Shown here: positions 18,926 through 29,299 of the stretch, piece by piece
Position numbering within the stretch: position 1 is the stretch's first letter
Layout of the letters: each line of letters begins with the position of its first letter
Origin: Betaproteobacteria bacterium Ga0077540
Lineage (GTDB): Bacteria; Pseudomonadota; Gammaproteobacteria; Burkholderiales; Methylophilaceae
Direction: 5' to 3'
NCBI GenBank assembly: GCA_001464125.1
Contig: LNEP01000015.1
Location: 1 to 64,000, forward strand
Length of the DNA: 64,000 bases
Program-made: the position numbers and the translations under genes
The notes under the pieces: model-generated
Databases searched by the model: none
Told to the model about the DNA's origin: nothing
The model's input: the letters and a program-made list of their open reading frames with translations, nothing else

Positions 18926-19549
18926 TTAGGTTAACTTTTGAATTAATGCTTGATAGCGTGTGACCTGCGCCGCCATTTTTAATCGCTGAGTACGCACAAT
19001 CGCCAATAAATCGTGGAGTGCGACATCAAAATCATCATTAATTGTAACATAATCGAACTCGACTAAGTGGCGCATTTCCTCACGTGCTGCCGCCACACGC
19101 TTGGCAATCACTTCTGCACTGTCTTGTCCGCGGTTGTTTAAACGCTCAGCCAAAGTTTCTACCGAAGGTGGCAATATAAAAACACTAATGGCATTTGGGT
19201 AAATTTCACGCACTTGTGCCGCGCCCTGCCAATCAATTTCCAAAATCACATCATGGCCTGATGCCAATGCCGTATCCACACCGGCTTGCGATGTGCCATA
19301 GCGCGCACCGTGCACGTGAGCGGATTCCAAAAATGCGCCCTGTTTCAACATGTTTAAAAAAGTCGCATCATCCACAAAGTGGTAGTGCACGCCGTTCTCT
19401 TCCAAGGGTCTTGGCTTACGCGTAGTATGAGAAACAGAAAGCTTAATATGACTATCTTTGGCCAGAAGCGCCTTCACCAAACTAGTTTTACCTGCACCAG
19501 AAGCAGCTGTAATAATGAACAAATTCCCTTGTGTCATATTTAACACCAA
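18926..19549 (-). CDS. gmk: Guanylate kinase (start may be the ATG at 19537)
   Basis: ITAASGAGKTSLVKALL P-loop; SHTTRKPRPLEENGVHYHFV. Confidence 0.95.
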   Translation of the reverse strand: MVLNMTQGNLFIITAASGAGKTSLVKALLAKDSHIKLSVSHTTRKPRPLEENGVHYHFVDDATFLNMLKQGAFLESAHVHGARYGTSQAGVDTALASGHDVILEIDWQGAAQVREIYPNAISVFILPPSVETLAERLNNRGQDSAEVIAKRVAAAREEMRHLVEFDYVTINDDFDVALHDLLAIVRTQRLKMAAQVTRYQALIQKLT

Positions 19550-20268
19550 TCCGGGCTTGGCAATGCCGAAAATACTTCTTTCAAACCTTCACTCCAACCT
19601 TTGCGTACCGTTGCGTAATAGGGGTCTTGCTCGGTCAGACGTTTCTGACAATTGGCATGTAGACTATCGGTACGGTAAATCATTAAATCAATCGGTGCGG
19701 CCACCGAAATATTGCTACGAATCGTTGAGTCGAATGAAATCAGCACACATTTCACCGCATCCATCATATCGGTATTGTGTTTGACCACGCGGTCGATAAT
19801 CGGCTTACCATATTTGGTTTCACCAATTTGAAAATATGGCGTATCACTGGTGGTCTCAATGAAATTACCAGCCGCATACACATTAAACAAACGAGGCTTT
19901 TCTCCTGCAATTTGCCCACCCACCAGCACACTGGCACTAAACTCAATGCCATGCTTTTGCAGATGATCACCATCTCGCTCATATACAGTACGCATCGCCT
20001 CCCCGACCAAGCCAGCCACTTCAAACATATTGCTAGCACTGTGGAGATGTTTAGCCGATTTGCTGTTCAGCTGGGTTTTGAGCAAGCTCACCACTGCCTG
20101 TGTAATCGCCAGATTACCTGCTGTAAGAAGCACAATCACACGCTTACCCGGCAAATCAAATACATGCATCTTGGGTGCAATAGCCACTTGATCCACACCA
20201 GCATTGGTGCGGGTATCCGAGGCAAAAACCAAGCCTTGCTCCAGTAATAAGCCAACACAGTACGTCAT
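19540..20268 (-). CDS. Anbu (ancestral beta subunit) proteasome-like peptidase; ORF-track start is over-extended, proposed ATG at 20266-20268 giving MTYCVGLLLEQGLVFASDTRTNAG
   Basis: HslV/20S-like Ntn hydrolase N-terminus: Thr after Met, FASDTRTNAG with Asp17, IAPK Lys, plus LLTAGNLAITQ. Confidence 0.88.
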   Translation of the reverse strand: MTYCVGLLLEQGLVFASDTRTNAGVDQVAIAPKMHVFDLPGKRVIVLLTAGNLAITQAVVSLLKTQLNSKSAKHLHSASNMFEVAGLVGEAMRTVYERDGDHLQKHGIEFSASVLVGGQIAGEKPRLFNVYAAGNFIETTSDTPYFQIGETKYGKPIIDRVVKHNTDMMDAVKCVLISFDSTIRSNISVAAPIDLMIYRTDSLHANCQKRLTEQDPYYATVRKGWSEGLKEVFSALPSPDWC

Positions 20269-20491: not shown

Positions 20492-22561
20492 GTGATGACC
20501 CTGTTCCCTTGGCAATCAATATTGCTAACCCCACTACTTTTACTGGCCAATATGCCGATAACGAGCGTTGCGAATAGCGAAGAGTCGATTACCCTGGATA
20601 CGATTGCCGTGATTGGTAACTACGACAACGGCATAGGTACATCAGATACAGCCAGTGAAGGGATAGTGACTAGAAAACTCATCGAAAACAGGCCAGCGCT
20701 ACGAACAGGCGAACTACTGGAATTTGTTCCCAACTTAATCGTCTCCCAACACAGCGGTAACGGCAAAGCCAATCAATATTACCTGCGTGGCTTTAACTTA
20801 GACCACGGCACGGACTTTGCCACTTTTGTAGATGGTGTACCGGTCAATATGCGCACACATGCGCATGGTCAAGGGTATACCGATTTAAACTTTTTAATCC
20901 CCGAGCTGGTGCAGGAGATTAAATATAAAAAGGGCCCATATTTTGCGGAGCTAGGTGATTTTGCCTCAGCCGGTGCTGCGCAGATGCAACTGGTCAATCA
21001 ACTTCCAAAGGGGCTTGCCTCAGTCACATTTGGCAGTTATGACTACCAGCGCTACCTCCTAGCCAACTCATCCGAAATTGCGGATGGTAATCTGCTATAC
21101 GGCTTAGAAATCAACCGCAACAATGGTCCTTGGCAAAATGAAGAAAATCTAAAAAAACTCAGTGGAGTGTTTCGTTATTCCGGAGGTACTGCGCTAGATG
21201 GTTTTAATATCACGGCGATGGCCTACCACAATCAATGGGATGCCACAGACCAGATTCCCTTGCGGGCGTTGCAATCAAACGCCTTGAATCGCTTTGGCAC
21301 CATAGATGCCACTGATGGTGGCGAATCTTCACGCTACAGCATCAGTGCAGCGCGGTACCAACATAATAGTGCAGGCGTATTTGAGGCAAATGTCTACGCG
21401 CTACGTTCAAAGTTAGACCTTTACAGTAATTTCACTTATTTTCTTAATAACCCAGTTGATGGCGACCAATTCAACCAGAACGAGCATCGCACCACTCTGG
21501 GCTTTAATGTTGCCAAAACATGGTTTAACGATATGTTTGGTTTGCCGATGCAAAATAAAATTGGGCTACAAACGCGCTACGATGATTTGTCACCAGTGGC
21601 TTTGTTTAATACGGTAGCCACCCAACGCACATCACTGATACGCTCGGATAAAGTGAGAGAGTTGAGTCATGGTTTGTTTGCTGAGAACAGTACGCAATGG
21701 CATGAAAAGTTCAGGTCTGTTCTTGGCATGCGTTATGACGAATATGATTTTGATGTGGATAGCAGCATTACAGACAATTCTGGCCATGCAAAAGACCATA
21801 TTACCTCACCCAAGTTATCCCTTATTTTTGGGCCTTGGGTTGGCACAGAGTTTTTTATTAACTACGGTCAAGGCTTTCACAGCAATGATGCCAGGGGCAC
21901 AACTCAGAAAGTGTTGCCGAACGGCGACCCTGCCGCTTCCGTTACGCTGCTGGCTGCTTCCAGAGGCAGCGAAATCGGCATACGAACTGAAATTATTCCA
22001 AACCTGCAGAGCTCGCTCGCCTTTTGGCAATTACATTTAGACTCTGAGTTGCTCTATATTGGGGATGCCGGAGAGACTGAGCCGACCAGAGCAAGCAAAC
22101 GTAAAGGCATTGAGTGGAGCAATCATTACATTGCCAATGACTGGCTATTGTTTGATTTTGATTTGGCTTTATCTCAAGCAAGATACAGGAGTAATGACGG
22201 CTCTGGCAGATACATTCCTGGGTCGCTGGGTCGGGTGATTGCTTTTGGCGCATCGTTCAACAACCTTAACCAATGGTCTGGCGCTCTACAACTGCGACAT
22301 TTTGGGCCAAGGCCATTAGTGGAAAACAATAGTGTGCGCTCCAACTCGACTACTGTGGCCTATGCGCGTGTTGGCTATCAGTTCACAGCAAGCACCAAGC
22401 TGACCTTGGATGTGTTTAACCTGTTTAATCGAAAACAGAGCGATATTGATTACTTTTATACATCACGCTTGAATGGGGAGGCTGCTGAAGGGGTAGATGA
22501 TATTCACTTTCACCCTGTGGAGCCGATAACTGCGCGCTTAACTTTGAGCCATCAGTTTTAA
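20492..22561 (+). CDS. TonB-dependent outer-membrane receptor (ligand unknown)
   Basis: Signal peptide, TonB box-like LDTIAVIG, plug NQYYLRGFNLDHGTDFATFVDGVPVN, C-terminal aromatic residue. Confidence 0.9.
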   Translation: MMTLFPWQSILLTPLLLLANMPITSVANSEESITLDTIAVIGNYDNGIGTSDTASEGIVTRKLIENRPALRTGELLEFVPNLIVSQHSGNGKANQYYLRGFNLDHGTDFATFVDGVPVNMRTHAHGQGYTDLNFLIPELVQEIKYKKGPYFAELGDFASAGAAQMQLVNQLPKGLASVTFGSYDYQRYLLANSSEIADGNLLYGLEINRNNGPWQNEENLKKLSGVFRYSGGTALDGFNITAMAYHNQWDATDQIPLRALQSNALNRFGTIDATDGGESSRYSISAARYQHNSAGVFEANVYALRSKLDLYSNFTYFLNNPVDGDQFNQNEHRTTLGFNVAKTWFNDMFGLPMQNKIGLQTRYDDLSPVALFNTVATQRTSLIRSDKVRELSHGLFAENSTQWHEKFRSVLGMRYDEYDFDVDSSITDNSGHAKDHITSPKLSLIFGPWVGTEFFINYGQGFHSNDARGTTQKVLPNGDPAASVTLLAASRGSEIGIRTEIIPNLQSSLAFWQLHLDSELLYIGDAGETEPTRASKRKGIEWSNHYIANDWLLFDFDLALSQARYRSNDGSGRYIPGSLGRVIAFGASFNNLNQWSGALQLRHFGPRPLVENNSVRSNSTTVAYARVGYQFTASTKLTLDVFNLFNRKQSDIDYFYTSRLNGEAAEGVDDIHFHPVEPITARLTLSHQF

Positions 22562-23006: not shown

Positions 23007-23843
23007 TTACTGCTGGGCTTGTTGAGCTTGTTGAAGCAGTGATGCCGAATGCGCTTTGGCATGCTGAAAGACAGGCGCCCCCTGCTGATTGACCACGACA
23101 TTGGACACCATACCCTCTTCACCACCGCCGATACGCATGCCGCTCACCGGGCTAGCGCCGCGGTAATCTAAACCCACCGCCAGACGTACATGGGTTTCAT
23201 TGGCGCGATACCCATTGGAGATATCCAAGCTTTGCCATTGATTGTTTAACCACACGTCCACCCAAGCGTGCGTCTGCATGAGGCTACCATCTTCGGTGAA
23301 TAAATACCCGCTGACATAACGAGCCGGATTACCTAAGCTTCTACAGCAGCTAATAAATACATGGGCATGGTCTTGGCAAACGCCCTGCCCCAAGTCAAAC
23401 GCCTCGCTCGCTGTGGTATCGACCTTGGTAGCACCTTTGATGTAAGCCATTTTGTCACGCAAGGCCAGCATCATGTCTTCAATCGGTCGATTGGCAAACT
23501 GACTGGCAAAGGCAATGATGGCCTCATTAGGGGATGTCAGCTCTGTTTCACGCAAATAGATCGGCATGGGTAAAGCCTGATGCTGTGTTAAATCGGCAAC
23601 ACCTGTTTCCACCTCGCCCGACACCGCGATTAGTAACTCATGATGTGGATTATCGATCACCAGCGTATGCGCAGTGTTGCCAAACGTATCTTGAAATTCA
23701 TGCAACTGACCATTCACTTTGATATCCCAATGGCGCACATGCTGGCCAAAGCCATTCTGTGGCGTGAGGCGTAACTGCTGAATGGTGTAGGTCACCATCT
23801 CGCTATATACATATTGTGTTTGGTGCTGAATATTGAGACGCAT
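23007..23843 (-). CDS. Transglutaminase-like cysteine peptidase (COG1305 type), Anbu-associated
   Basis: GVCQDHAHVFISCCRSLGNPARYVSGY (Cys), THAWVDVWL (His), SLDISNG (Asp) triad. Confidence 0.9.
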   Translation of the reverse strand: MRLNIQHQTQYVYSEMVTYTIQQLRLTPQNGFGQHVRHWDIKVNGQLHEFQDTFGNTAHTLVIDNPHHELLIAVSGEVETGVADLTQHQALPMPIYLRETELTSPNEAIIAFASQFANRPIEDMMLALRDKMAYIKGATKVDTTASEAFDLGQGVCQDHAHVFISCCRSLGNPARYVSGYLFTEDGSLMQTHAWVDVWLNNQWQSLDISNGYRANETHVRLAVGLDYRGASPVSGMRIGGGEEGMVSNVVVNQQGAPVFQHAKAHSASLLQQAQQAQQ

Positions 23844-23865: not shown

Positions 23866-24810
23866 TTAAACCGTTGCGCTCAAGAAACTACGCTGAATTT
23901 CTTCACCCAATACATGATTAGAATGAATAAAGCTCTCCAAAAACTCATGCAGTCCATGCTGAAAAATGTCCTGCATTTTGCCGTAATGCAACTTGGCATG
24001 CAGTTCACCCGCCAAACGCTTGGTCTCACTTTGGCGATTGGCCGCCACCTGTTCAATAATCGGCATAATCTCATCATAACAAGCATGGAGCGAGCGTGGC
24101 ATATCATGTCTCAACACCAAGAGTTCTGAGACACGTACCGGGTCAATCGCATCGCTATAGATTTTTTGATAGGCCTGAAAAGCGGATACCGAGCGCAAGA
24201 CTGCACTCCACTCGTAATAGTCGACTGTACCGCCCATTTGGTGCTGCACAGGCATCAGAAAATCGTATTTGATATTGAGTAAGCGCGCCGTGTTATCGGC
24301 ACGCTCAATAAACGTGCCTAAACGTACAAAGCTAAAGGCTTCGTCGCGCAACATGGTGCCAAAACAGACACCTCTAAATAGGTGCGAACGTGATTTGACC
24401 CAATCGCAAAATTCACTTAAACCTTCTACTGTTAAATCTTTACGCAGAAACTGATCAAACTCTAACCACAAGGCGTTGATATTTTCCCAAGTCTCAGTGG
24501 TCATGGTCACCCGCACTGCACGGGCGTTTTCACGTGCACTGCGCAACGCACTGTAAATACTGGACGGGTTGTTGCTGTCCATGGTCAGGTACTGAATCAC
24601 ATTTTTAGCATTTGGCTTGCCATAGTCACGCTCAAATGCCTCAATATTGCTGGTAATTTCCACTGCGGCCTGCCATAAATCCGCATCGTTACCAGTAGCG
24701 CTGGGCACTAGCGACATGTTGTAGGTCACATCCAACACGCGTGCAGCGTTTTCGGCACGCTCAATATAACGCGCCATCCAATAGAGATGATCTGCTGTAC
24801 GACTTAACAT
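23866..24810 (-). CDS. Alpha-E domain protein (COG2307 type)
   Basis: MLSRTADHLYWMARYIERAENAARVLDV signature; 7-bp overlap with the ATP-grasp gene. Confidence 0.9.
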   Translation of the reverse strand: MLSRTADHLYWMARYIERAENAARVLDVTYNMSLVPSATGNDADLWQAAVEITSNIEAFERDYGKPNAKNVIQYLTMDSNNPSSIYSALRSARENARAVRVTMTTETWENINALWLEFDQFLRKDLTVEGLSEFCDWVKSRSHLFRGVCFGTMLRDEAFSFVRLGTFIERADNTARLLNIKYDFLMPVQHQMGGTVDYYEWSAVLRSVSAFQAYQKIYSDAIDPVRVSELLVLRHDMPRSLHACYDEIMPIIEQVAANRQSETKRLAGELHAKLHYGKMQDIFQHGLHEFLESFIHSNHVLGEEIQRSFLSATV

Positions 24811-26291
24811 GCCACTTCTTCTTTCTTGATTGCTTGGCTGGTATTGGTAGGTTTTTCTGCAGCGGTGTCATCACGCTCTAACACCCAAGTATCCTTGGTA
24901 CCACCGCCTTGTGACGAGTTAACCACCAGTGAGCCTTCTTTGAGCGCGACTCGGCACAACCCACCTGGCACTACACTCACGGTTTTGCCGGACAGTACAA
25001 AGGGGCGTAAATCCACATGGCGTGGCGCAATTCCCTGCTCTACCAAGGTTGGGCAAGTAGAGAGCGCCAGCGTAGGCTGGGCGATATAGCTGGAAGGTTT
25101 GGATAAAATACGTAGCTTAAATTCCGCCAGCTCTTGCTTGGTGGCGGCAGGGCCCACCAACATGCCATAGCCGCCAGAGCCCTGCACCTCTTTCACCACT
25201 AACTCATCTAGATGGTCGAGCACATAAGCCAAATCATCTTCTTTGCTCAGCTCATAGGTAGGCACGTTTTGCAGGATGGGCTCTTCACCCAAGTAGAATT
25301 TAATCATTTGCGGTACGTAAATATAGGTGGCTTTGTCATCTGCCGCACCGGTACCCACGGCATTGGCCAGGGTGACACCGCCGTTACGATACACCGACAG
25401 TAAGCCCGGCACACCCAACATCGAATCCGGTTTAAACACCAGCGGATCCAAAAAGTCATCATCAATGCGGCGATAAATCACATCCACACGCCTTGGGCCT
25501 TGTGTGGTGCGCATATACACGGCGTTATTGCGCACGAATAGATCTTGCCCCTCAACCAGCTCGATCCCCATTTGCTGCGCTAAAAACGCATGCTCAAAAT
25601 AAGCGCTGTTATAAGCACCCGGGGACAGCAACACCACAGTAGGGTCTTGCACTCCAGATTGGGCCACTGAGCGTAAATTATTCAGCAACACCTGCGGATA
25701 ATGCTCGACTGGAGCTACGGAGTATTGCCTGAATAAATCCGGAAACAGGCGCATCATCATTTTGCGGTTTTCCAGCATGTAAGACACACCGGAGGGTGTG
25801 CGCAGATTGTCTTCTAGCACATAAAACTGTGATTCGCTGGTACGCACCAAATCCACTCCGGCAATATGCGCGTAAATCTGATTGGGCACGTCTACACCAA
25901 ACATCTCCGGACGATATTGCGGATTGCTTAAAATGGTGTAGGGCACAATGCCGGCCTGAATGATTTCTTGTTTGTGATAAATATCGTGCAAGAACATGTT
26001 GAGCGCTCGCACGCGTTGTATCACCCCCGCAGACAAATGTGCCCACTCCTTGCTGGAAATGAGCCGAGGAATCACATCGAAAGGAATCAGCCGCTCTGCG
26101 CCATCGGCATCGCCATAGACATTAAAGGTAATCCCCACGCGGCGAAACAACAATTCGGCTTCTGCACGTTTGGCTGCCAATTGATGCGTAGGTACATTTT
26201 TTAACCAACGTTGATAGGCTTTATAAATGGCACGTGCATCCCCCACTTTAGCCTGCATTTCATCAAAAAACTTATCGACAGTATCTGACAT
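24804..26291 (-). CDS. Circularly permuted ATP-grasp type 2 protein (COG2308 type); start set at the ATG 26289-26291 after the sigma-54 element
   Basis: EDNLRTPSGVSYMLENR, VDVIYRRIDDDFLDPL, VVKEVQGSGGYGMLVGP. Confidence 0.9.
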   Translation of the reverse strand: MSDTVDKFFDEMQAKVGDARAIYKAYQRWLKNVPTHQLAAKRAEAELLFRRVGITFNVYGDADGAERLIPFDVIPRLISSKEWAHLSAGVIQRVRALNMFLHDIYHKQEIIQAGIVPYTILSNPQYRPEMFGVDVPNQIYAHIAGVDLVRTSESQFYVLEDNLRTPSGVSYMLENRKMMMRLFPDLFRQYSVAPVEHYPQVLLNNLRSVAQSGVQDPTVVLLSPGAYNSAYFEHAFLAQQMGIELVEGQDLFVRNNAVYMRTTQGPRRVDVIYRRIDDDFLDPLVFKPDSMLGVPGLLSVYRNGGVTLANAVGTGAADDKATYIYVPQMIKFYLGEEPILQNVPTYELSKEDDLAYVLDHLDELVVKEVQGSGGYGMLVGPAATKQELAEFKLRILSKPSSYIAQPTLALSTCPTLVEQGIAPRHVDLRPFVLSGKTVSVVPGGLCRVALKEGSLVVNSSQGGGTKDTWVLERDDTAAEKPTNTSQAIKKEEVAC

Positions 26292-26324
26292 ACTTTTAAT
26301 CTTTCTATAGTTAATGAGATTAAA

Positions 26325-26340
26325 AGCAAACTGCATACCA
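26325..26340 (-). promoter_or_regulatory. Sigma-54 (RpoN) -24/-12 promoter of the ATP-grasp/alpha-E/transglutaminase operon
   Basis: Complement TGGTATGCAGTTTGCT: exact GG-N10-GC; matches TGGYAYR-N4-TTGCW; about 35 bp upstream of the ATG. Confidence 0.75.
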
Positions 26341-26400
26341 GTTTAAATATTCTTTTAAATCAGATGCTTATAAATCAGTTTCGGCCATGAGGATAATAAT

Positions 26401-26417
26401 AGCACCAAAAAGGTGCA
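26401..26417. promoter_or_regulatory. NtrC-like enhancer dyad AGCACC-AAAAA-GGTGCA
   Basis: Compare the enterobacterial NtrC site TGCACC-N5-GGTGCA; 11 of 12 arm positions match; lies 60 bp upstream of the sigma-54 element. Confidence 0.6.
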
Positions 26418-26470
26418 TTAAATGCATTTGGTTTCAAACGCCCATGATTGAACGCACAAAAAACATGCGT

Positions 26471-27334
26471 TTATTCAATATTTTGGATTTGCTCTCGCAT
26501 TTGTTCAATCAGCACCTTGAGTTGCATGGAGATTTGTGTGGTCTCAATCGCCACAGATTTAGAGCCCAACGTGTTGGCTTCACGGTTCATCTCTTGCATG
26601 AGGAAATCCAGTTTTTTACCTACCGCTCCGCCTTTGGCAAGAATATGGCTGACTTCACGCACATGTGCGTCCAAGCGAGAAAGCTCCTCATCCACATCAA
26701 TGCGTTGAGCATACAATACAATCTCTTGGCGCACGCGTTCATCATCTGCCAGCATGGCTTCTTGTAGTTTGGCAGTGAGTTTATCCTGATAGGCTTGAAT
26801 CAATTGTGGCAGCATCGGTTTTACCTTAACCACCAAGGCGTTAATCTCAGTTAAACGCGCCAATATCATTTCTTTAAGCTTCTCGCCCTCACGTTGACGT
26901 GCACCAATTAAATTATCTAACACATCGCTGAGTGTTTTTTTAATGGTGGCCTCTAGGGCTTCCTGATCTAACTGTGGTGCTTGCGTCACACCCGGCATGC
27001 GTAATATTTCTAATAGATCCACCGCTTGGACTGTCGGGAAATATTGCGAAACCGCCTGAATACTCTGTGCAATTTGCTGCACGGCTTGGTGATTGATGGC
27101 CGCAAATTGAACAGCCGCATTGTCTTGCTTTAAAAAGACACGACAATCGACTTTGCCACGGCCAAGCTTGGTTTGTATCTGCTCACGTATGGTATTTTCA
27201 AACACACGCAAGTGATCATCCAATTTTAATTGCAGTTCAAGGTAGCGATGGTTGACCGAACGTATCTCTATTGTCAACGCGCCATTAGGGGTGGTTTGCT
27301 CATGCGAGGCATAACCTGTCATGCTTAAAATCAT
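26471..27334 (-). CDS. yicC: YicC family endoribonuclease-like protein
   Basis: MILSMTGYASHE start; C-terminal FLMQEMNREANTLGSKS. Confidence 0.94.
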   Translation of the reverse strand: MILSMTGYASHEQTTPNGALTIEIRSVNHRYLELQLKLDDHLRVFENTIREQIQTKLGRGKVDCRVFLKQDNAAVQFAAINHQAVQQIAQSIQAVSQYFPTVQAVDLLEILRMPGVTQAPQLDQEALEATIKKTLSDVLDNLIGARQREGEKLKEMILARLTEINALVVKVKPMLPQLIQAYQDKLTAKLQEAMLADDERVRQEIVLYAQRIDVDEELSRLDAHVREVSHILAKGGAVGKKLDFLMQEMNREANTLGSKSVAIETTQISMQLKVLIEQMREQIQNIE

Positions 27335-27437: not shown

Positions 27438-28382
27438 ATGGCCATCACCAACAAAAATCAAGCGCTTGAGATTGGCTTTAAGTTACAAGATTACACCATC
27501 ACCAAAGTGCTGAGCTCTGGCGGTTTTAGTTTTGTGTATTTGGCGCATGACCCTAACAAAAAAGTAGTGGCCATCAAAGAATATATGCCCACCGGTTTAG
27601 CATTGCGCAATAAAGGCGCGACCGTGCAACTGGACGATCATGGCGACTCTGCTGTATTCAAACAAGGCCTTAAAAGCTTTTTTGAAGAGGGTTTATCGCT
27701 CGCCAAAATTGACCATAAAAACATTGTGCGCGTACTGAATTTTTTCAGAGCCAACAATACAGTGTACATGGTGATGAAGTATGAGCGCGGCAAATCACTG
27801 CAAGAATATATACTGGCGCACGAGAATCCTATTTCGGAAAATTTTGTGCGTCGCGTATTTGCTGAATTGCTGAATGGCTTACGCGAGGTGCATACCCATA
27901 AATTACTGCACCTAGATATTAAGCCGGCCAATATTTATATCCGTTTGGATGGCTCGCCGGTGCTGCTGGATTTTGGTTCGGCTAGACAAACCTTGTCTGA
28001 GGCCAAATCGAATATTCCTTTAAGTTATACACCAGGGTTTGCCCCACCGGAGCAATACTACAGTCGTCAGAACTTAGGCCCTTGGAGCGACATCTACAGC
28101 ATAGGCGCCAGCATGTATGCCTGCTTGTACCGCGCCACACCACAAGCGTCTAATCTACGCGTGACTAAAGATAATTTGGAACCCGCTAAATCATTAGGAA
28201 ACAAAATTTATTCAGAAGAGTTACTGGTGCTGATTGATGAGTGTCTTAAGCTAGACCATTTAGCACGACCACAAAGTGTATTTTCATTGCAAAAACAAAT
28301 CATGGCGCTTAGCCCTGCGCCAGAAGGCACAAGAAGTAGTATTGTTAACAAAATCAAAAAAGTATTGAACACACCACTATGA
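27438..28382 (+). CDS. Hanks-type serine/threonine protein kinase
   Basis: HLDIKPANIYI catalytic loop, LLDFGSARQ, APPEQY. Confidence 0.93.
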   Translation: MAITNKNQALEIGFKLQDYTITKVLSSGGFSFVYLAHDPNKKVVAIKEYMPTGLALRNKGATVQLDDHGDSAVFKQGLKSFFEEGLSLAKIDHKNIVRVLNFFRANNTVYMVMKYERGKSLQEYILAHENPISENFVRRVFAELLNGLREVHTHKLLHLDIKPANIYIRLDGSPVLLDFGSARQTLSEAKSNIPLSYTPGFAPPEQYYSRQNLGPWSDIYSIGASMYACLYRATPQASNLRVTKDNLEPAKSLGNKIYSEELLVLIDECLKLDHLARPQSVFSLQKQIMALSPAPEGTRSSIVNKIKKVLNTPL

Positions 28383-29299
28383 AATTTACGATTTATCAAA
28401 GCAGTCGACAAGGGCCTCGTGCGTACAATCAGGATCGCTTGGCGTACTCCTACAGCAAAGACGCGCTACTGATGGTATTGGCTGACGGGATGGGTGGTCA
28501 TCGACACGGCGAAGTGGCTGCGCAATTGGCGGTTAAAACCCTGACCGAGGCCTTTCAACGTTTAGCCTTGCCAACCTTACCTAGCCCGGCTAAATTTTTG
28601 ACAGACCATATTCAGCAAATCCATGACATGATTGAAAACAAGCGTCAGATGGATGATTTGATTGAATCACCCCGCACGACTATTGTGGCGGCAATCATCC
28701 AGCGCAACACCTTGTACTGCGCGCACGTGGGCGATTCCAGACTTTATCATTTTAGAGACGGCCATTTGCTGTTTAGAACCGAAGACCATTCAATTGTGCA
28801 ATCCATGTATCGCAAGGGATTAATTAACAAAGAAGAAATGGCCACACACCCTTACCGTAATAAAATTTATAATTGCTTGGGCGGCGATAATATTCCACAG
28901 ATTGATTTGGCCGACCGCCATGAGCTGATGGATGGGGACATTATCTTGCTATGCACGGATGGCATTTGGAATGTGATTGATGACCGTGAAATTAAGAATA
29001 TCTTAGTCTCCGGCGTGATTGATGAAACCGTCGTGCATTTGCTAGACACGGCAGAGAAAAACAGCGACCACACAGGCGACAACATGAGTGCGATTGGCTT
29101 GCAATGGGGTGACCGTCAACAAAACCCTCAAGCGGTGTCCACCATCACCATGCCGTTGGATCAGACCACCACCATCATGAACCCAACCACACAGCCTGCT
29201 AAATTAAGTGACAATGCTCCTGATGACCTCACCGATGAGGACATTGAAAAAACCATTGCCGAAATTCAAGCAGCTTTAACCAGACCCAAAGCCTTTTAA
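28379..29299 (+). CDS. PP2C-family protein phosphatase
   Basis: [43 protein letters not shown] overlap with the kinase. Confidence 0.93.

Follow-up and report, generated by a model that had tools for sequence, protein, structure and literature searches.

A very probable NtrC-activated, sigma-54-dependent promoter of the ATP-grasp/Alpha-E/transglutaminase operon in a methylotroph family

The ATP-grasp/Alpha-E/transglutaminase operon in the window (the whole stretch of 64,000 nucleotides of DNA that was analysed) is preceded by what we regard, with high confidence, as a genuine NtrC-activated, sigma-54-dependent promoter, which would turn the operon on when fixed nitrogen is short. A promoter of this kind is very probable because its two elements are conserved at a fixed spacing, because the control searches came out negative, because the compound pattern is specific, and because the genes for NtrB, NtrC and RpoN are present in the genome. 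In the proposed mechanism, low nitrogen would lead NtrB to phosphorylate NtrC; phosphorylated NtrC would bind the dyad at 26417-26401, IHF would bend the DNA at 26370-26358, and the looped NtrC oligomer would, with ATP, open the sigma-54 polymerase complex at 26340-26325, so that transcription would begin near 26314, a predicted start some 12 bp downstream of the GC in the sigma-54 box.

The regulators belonging to such a promoter are encoded in the same genome: NtrC (712 bits; cut-off 558.6) in a glnA-ntrB-ntrC locus, NtrB (365 bits; cut-off 240), and RpoN (TIGR02395, 463.7 bits; cut-off 277). The closest named relatives are Methylophilus and Methylotenera; protein identity is 95 percent with a Methylophilus metagenome-assembled genome (MAG), so that Methylophilus or a near relative within Methylophilaceae is the most likely source of the window. 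The features in the window are listed in Table 1.

Table 1. Genes and predicted regulatory elements in and around the operon
Feature	Position	Strand	Remarks
Proteasome-like gene Anbu, set apart from the sigma-54 promoter	19540..20268	-	PF00227, 34 bits
TonB-dependent receptor gene, between operon and Anbu	20492..22561	+	PF00593, PF07715
Transglutaminase-like gene	23007..23843	-	PF08379 and PF01841
Alpha-E gene, overlapping the ATP-grasp gene	23866..24810	-	PF04168, 330 bits
ATP-grasp gene, circularly permuted; operon gene 1	24804..26291	-	PF14403, 559 bits; PF04174, 524 bits
Sigma-54 -24/-12 promoter TGGTATGCAGTTTGCT (predicted)	26325..26340	-	11-12/12 in 30/30 family loci
IHF-like site TAAGCATCTGATT, between enhancer and promoter	26358..26370	-	full match to YAANNNNYTGATW
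NtrC-like enhancer dyad TGCACCTTTTTGGTGCT	26401..26417	-	centre about 95 bp upstream of predicted transcription start
Possible second NtrC site CGCATGTTTTTTGTGCG, weak and uncertain	26453..26469	-	7/10; 52 bp further upstream
yicC, upstream neighbour on the operon strand, outside the switch	26471..27334	-	

Elements of the promoter region

The sigma-54 box and the dyad were re-read from the sequence, and the letters and coordinates given for them by the initial annotation are correct. That annotation had called the box an exact match to the RpoN consensus, which is true of the invariant GG-N10-GC and not of TGGCACG-N4-TTGCW, against which TGGTATGCAGTTTGCT has two mismatches; against the relaxed form TGGYAYR-N4-TTGCW, it scores 12/12. 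The longest open reading frame of the ATP-grasp gene begins at 26336, within the box; the likely start codon is at 26291, because the homology of the relatives begins there, and the distance from the end of the box to this ATG is 34 bp, in agreement with the approximately 35 bp noted before. A search for a sigma-70-like promoter in the region found none. Taken alone, the sigma-54 box says little, because the window has such sites as often as shuffled sequence does (128 with up to three mismatches, 144 expected, thus no enrichment).

The upstream dyad, AGCACC-AAAAA-GGTGCA, is present as had been claimed, with 11 of the 12 arm positions of TGCACC-N5-GGTGCA; every other site in the window departs from that consensus at three or more positions. 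Compared with TGCAC-N7-GTGCA, it matches at 9/10 positions, and its centre at about -95 lies at enhancer distance. At the observed spacing, the window holds a single pair of dyad and box, 16 Mb of simulated sequence gave none, and the chance rate of the pair, as estimated from single-site rates, is roughly 0.002 per 64 kb. Thus, the box alone is near chance, whereas the pair of dyad and box is not. A second NtrC site was also considered. Many congeners have a better one, TGCACCAAAAYCGTGAY (8/10, 24 bp upstream), although in the window nothing like it was seen at that place, and only the weak 7/10 candidate of Table 1 was found.

Between the two elements lies an IHF-like site, new here and absent from the initial annotation. 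It matches YAANNNNYTGATW in full, the reverse complement of WATCARNNNNTTR, which we take to be the IHF consensus. The best IHF-like match is located on the same strand, 30-32 bp before the TGG of the box, in 23/29 family loci, and such a site recurs in the upstream regions of many named loci. At sigma-54 promoters, looping is commonly assisted by IHF, and binding of IHF at 26370-26358 would fit this arrangement.

Conservation of the layout and its occurrence at other nitrogen genes

Operon loci were fetched from relatives and their upstream regions were scored, with the starts of the distant loci placed from match coordinates. In the family, the sigma-54 box scores 11 or 12/12 in 30/30 loci, and an NtrC-like dyad (7 to 10 of 10 positions) is located upstream in all 29 loci that have enough sequence. 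The distance between dyad and box in these 29 is 77-79 bp in 27, 67 bp in one (approximately one helical turn short) and 101 bp in one. Conservation of the motifs upstream of orthologous operons had been proposed as a check on the promoter, and the absence of both from close relatives that still have the operon had been named as evidence against it; the opposite was found, as dyad and box are kept at a fixed spacing. A test of whether the operon is lost together with its regulators has no power, since rpoN is kept in 61/61 genomes and ntrC in 60/61.

The set of named loci comprised 80, of which 78 were testable for dyad and box. Both elements are present in 24/78 upstream regions, mostly from Methylophilaceae, with Methylophilus, Methylotenera and Methylobacillus keeping the layout. 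In a coding-sequence control, dyad and box occurred together in 0/480 stretches. Upstream regions of a paralogous fused ATP-grasp gene of about 850 residues, taken from 20 genomes, had a box of at least 11/12 in 0/20 cases. This paralogous ATP-grasp, encoded in an open reading frame of that length (C3:34444-35844 in the window's own genome, and loci L119-L138), is found in most relatives and lacks the sigma-54 promoter. The predicted NtrC/sigma-54 control does not extend to every relative with the operon, because in the Collimonas and Herbaspirillum relatives no such promoter was found within 400 bp upstream, with one weak exception. Farther afield in the class, some lineages also show the layout, e.g., G099 (12/12 box, 10/10 dyad, 81 bp) and G226 (12/12 box, 9/10 dyad, 80 bp). 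One genome placed in the genus, G019, has only a divergent copy of the operon (52 percent identity), without a sigma-54 box (L049, G019:C16); on the same contig, several Anbu-like matches lie side by side (G019:C16:16869-18379).

To assess specificity, 22 genomes of the genus were searched with a strict pattern of dyad and box, which gave 23 matches, 19 at the operon and 4 at a urea-type ABC transporter; the reversed pattern gave none in the same genomes, and a congener without the operon (G017) had no strict match. Two of the transporter matches were inspected (L196 and L213), and both lie ahead of the same gene, which encodes a binding protein of a urea-type ABC transporter (TIGR03427; the L196 match exceeds the cut-off); the other two (L215 and L216) are nearly identical in sequence to L196. 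The region ahead of this binding-protein gene is thus, after that of the operon, the second place in the genus with a conserved, predicted NtrC and sigma-54 promoter.

With a looser pattern, the sole other match in the window's own genome precedes an ammonium transporter gene, identified by a score of 309.7 bits with the amt model, which is below the cut-off of 343.3. The amt promoter (L057 1300-1500; contig C1 around 178800-179000) comprises two NtrC-like dyads, TGCACAAATTTTGTGCA and TGCACATTCGTAGTGCG, and a sigma-54 box, TGGCGCGCAATTTGCT; as at the operon, the dyads lie upstream of the box, but there are two of them, where the operon has one strong dyad. Upstream of glnA, the neighbour of ntrB and ntrC, a 9/10 dyad precedes an 11/12 box (L058), and the 77 bp between them is identical to the spacing at the operon. 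Read from the sequences, the dyad-box layout is a mark of nitrogen genes, the operon among them.

Several other explanations of the two elements were weighed. A lone sigma-54-like site is expected by chance in a sequence the size of the window, so that the resemblance might be accidental and the operon transcribed from an unrelated promoter; against this stand the fixed-spacing conservation in all relatives and the paralog, coding-sequence and reversed-pattern controls, which render the chance reading very unlikely, to the point of being hardly credible. The dyad might instead serve chiefly as an intrinsic terminator for yicC and resemble an NtrC site only by coincidence. It does lie after yicC on the same strand, it scored as a terminator-like hairpin, and in several congeners TTTTG runs follow it. 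However, the tail of the dyad in the window is TATTATTATC, which has no T-run; yicC was not found beside the operon in 25/52 family loci, and in most of these the dyad is kept, with its GCAC-N7-GTGC-like letters and its distance of 77-79 bp; and a dyad at equal distance precedes glnA, just as two dyads precede amt. A main role as terminator was rejected on the retention of the dyad in most loci without yicC and on the missing T-run, and only a slight chance is left to it.

A somewhat different question is which protein would act at the dyad. The sigma-54 promoter could be real and its activator an enhancer-binding protein other than NtrC, given that the genome has six long NtrC-like matches and that one alone exceeds the NtrC cut-off; yet the letters of the dyad are those of the classical NtrC site, and besides the operon the compound pattern is found across the genus only at nitrogen genes (amt and the urea-type ABC transporter, with glnA slightly weaker), so that another activator seems very unlikely. 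Control of the operon by NtrC and sigma-54, as the initial annotation had suggested, is thus supported by the fixed-spacing conservation, by the three controls, and by the like layout at amt, glnA and the urea-type transporter.

Separation of Anbu from the operon

All four genes of the Anbu operon type (ATP-grasp, Alpha-E, transglutaminase and Anbu) are present in the 64-kb window with the expected domains (4/4). They are not contiguous on one strand, as the TonB-dependent receptor gene, on the plus strand, intervenes. Anbu orthologs were found in 42/61 genomes searched. In most congeners, Anbu comes shortly after the transglutaminase gene, their matched ends lying some 90-160 bp apart, and there it would share the promoter of the operon. 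The nearest relative, G016, has an opposite-strand gene for a SulP-type permease between transglutaminase and Anbu (L055 4953-6488, +), and in G011 the two are about 5 kb apart. The slot between transglutaminase and Anbu thus holds unrelated genes in near relatives: a TonB-dependent receptor in the window, a SulP-type permease in G016. On the other side of the operon, a gene pair for a serine/threonine kinase and a PP2C phosphatase (27438-29299, +) is divergent from yicC and is kept beside it in congeners.

No sigma-54 element had been reported upstream of Anbu. A weak GG-N10-GC site does exist there (TGGTATGATTTCAGCA, 20304-20289, 10/12); the negative statement nevertheless holds in substance, because a site like TGGTATGATTTCAGCA is not conserved upstream of Anbu in the nearest relatives. 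A sigma-54 promoter of Anbu's own was rejected, the one weak site being confined to the window's species. Possibly, in the small clade of the window, control by the nitrogen switch is confined to the ATP-grasp, Alpha-E and transglutaminase genes, Anbu having been uncoupled by the inserted opposite-strand genes; this we put forward tentatively, as the less probable course of events. If it were true, the job of the three enzymes in nitrogen starvation would need no co-induced Anbu. The clade is a natural test case in which Anbu stands apart from the rest.

Relation to known systems

The nitrogen link of this type of operon is not new, because it has already been published for Pseudomonas putida (PMC8050072, PMC7801951). 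In that organism, PP_2685 and PP_2688 are up by log2 4.4 and 4.0, respectively, on nitrate versus ammonium (PMC8050072). PP_2685-2688 are placed in the nitrogen/NtrC regulon (Hervas et al. 2008, 2009, as relayed in PMC8050072 and PMC7801951), and a passage of PMC7801951 citing Hervas 2009 attributes them to NtrB/NtrC. The gene set of PP_2685-PP_2688 (Anbu, transglutaminase, Alpha-E, ATP-grasp) is the same as that of the window; the comparison covers gene content and regulation, and a difference is that in the window a gene on the other strand parts Anbu from the operon. Under nitrogen limitation, PP_2686-2688 rose 14-20 fold in both the wild type and an rpoN mutant (PMC7801951, Table 2), which counts against a strict sigma-54 dependence of the operon in P. 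putida. This result may say more about the strain or the condition than about the operon, because the urea transporter genes urtABCD were likewise still induced in the rpoN mutant (PMC7801951, Table 2).

Structural papers on Anbu also mention a nitrogen response (PMC5666114, PMC6376114). In Burkholderia cenocepacia, the transglutaminase cluster I35_5080-83 is reported to be a common target of sigma-54 and NtrC (PMC5491218); it is a transglutaminase-type cluster of a betaproteobacterium, but may correspond to the paralogous cluster of large transglutaminase and fused ATP-grasp rather than to the Anbu-linked one. Computational work found sigma-54 promoters enriched at COG3484, the proteasome-type protease Anbu, in proteobacteria (PMC12316311), an independent link between Anbu and sigma-54, which applies at family level to Anbu itself and not to the promoter of the window's operon.

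What is new here is the footprint in methylotrophs, the IHF-like site, and the separation of Anbu from the promoter by inserted genes in the window's clade. The control reported for these genes in P. putida would thereby extend to methylotrophs, and the operon may be linked to nitrogen storage, scavenging or peptide turnover. A conserved nitrogen-starvation switch across the methylotroph family, in agreement with a distant gammaproteobacterium, would say when the system is used, and nitrogen starvation would offer a simple growth condition under which to seek the product or the targets of its enzymes.
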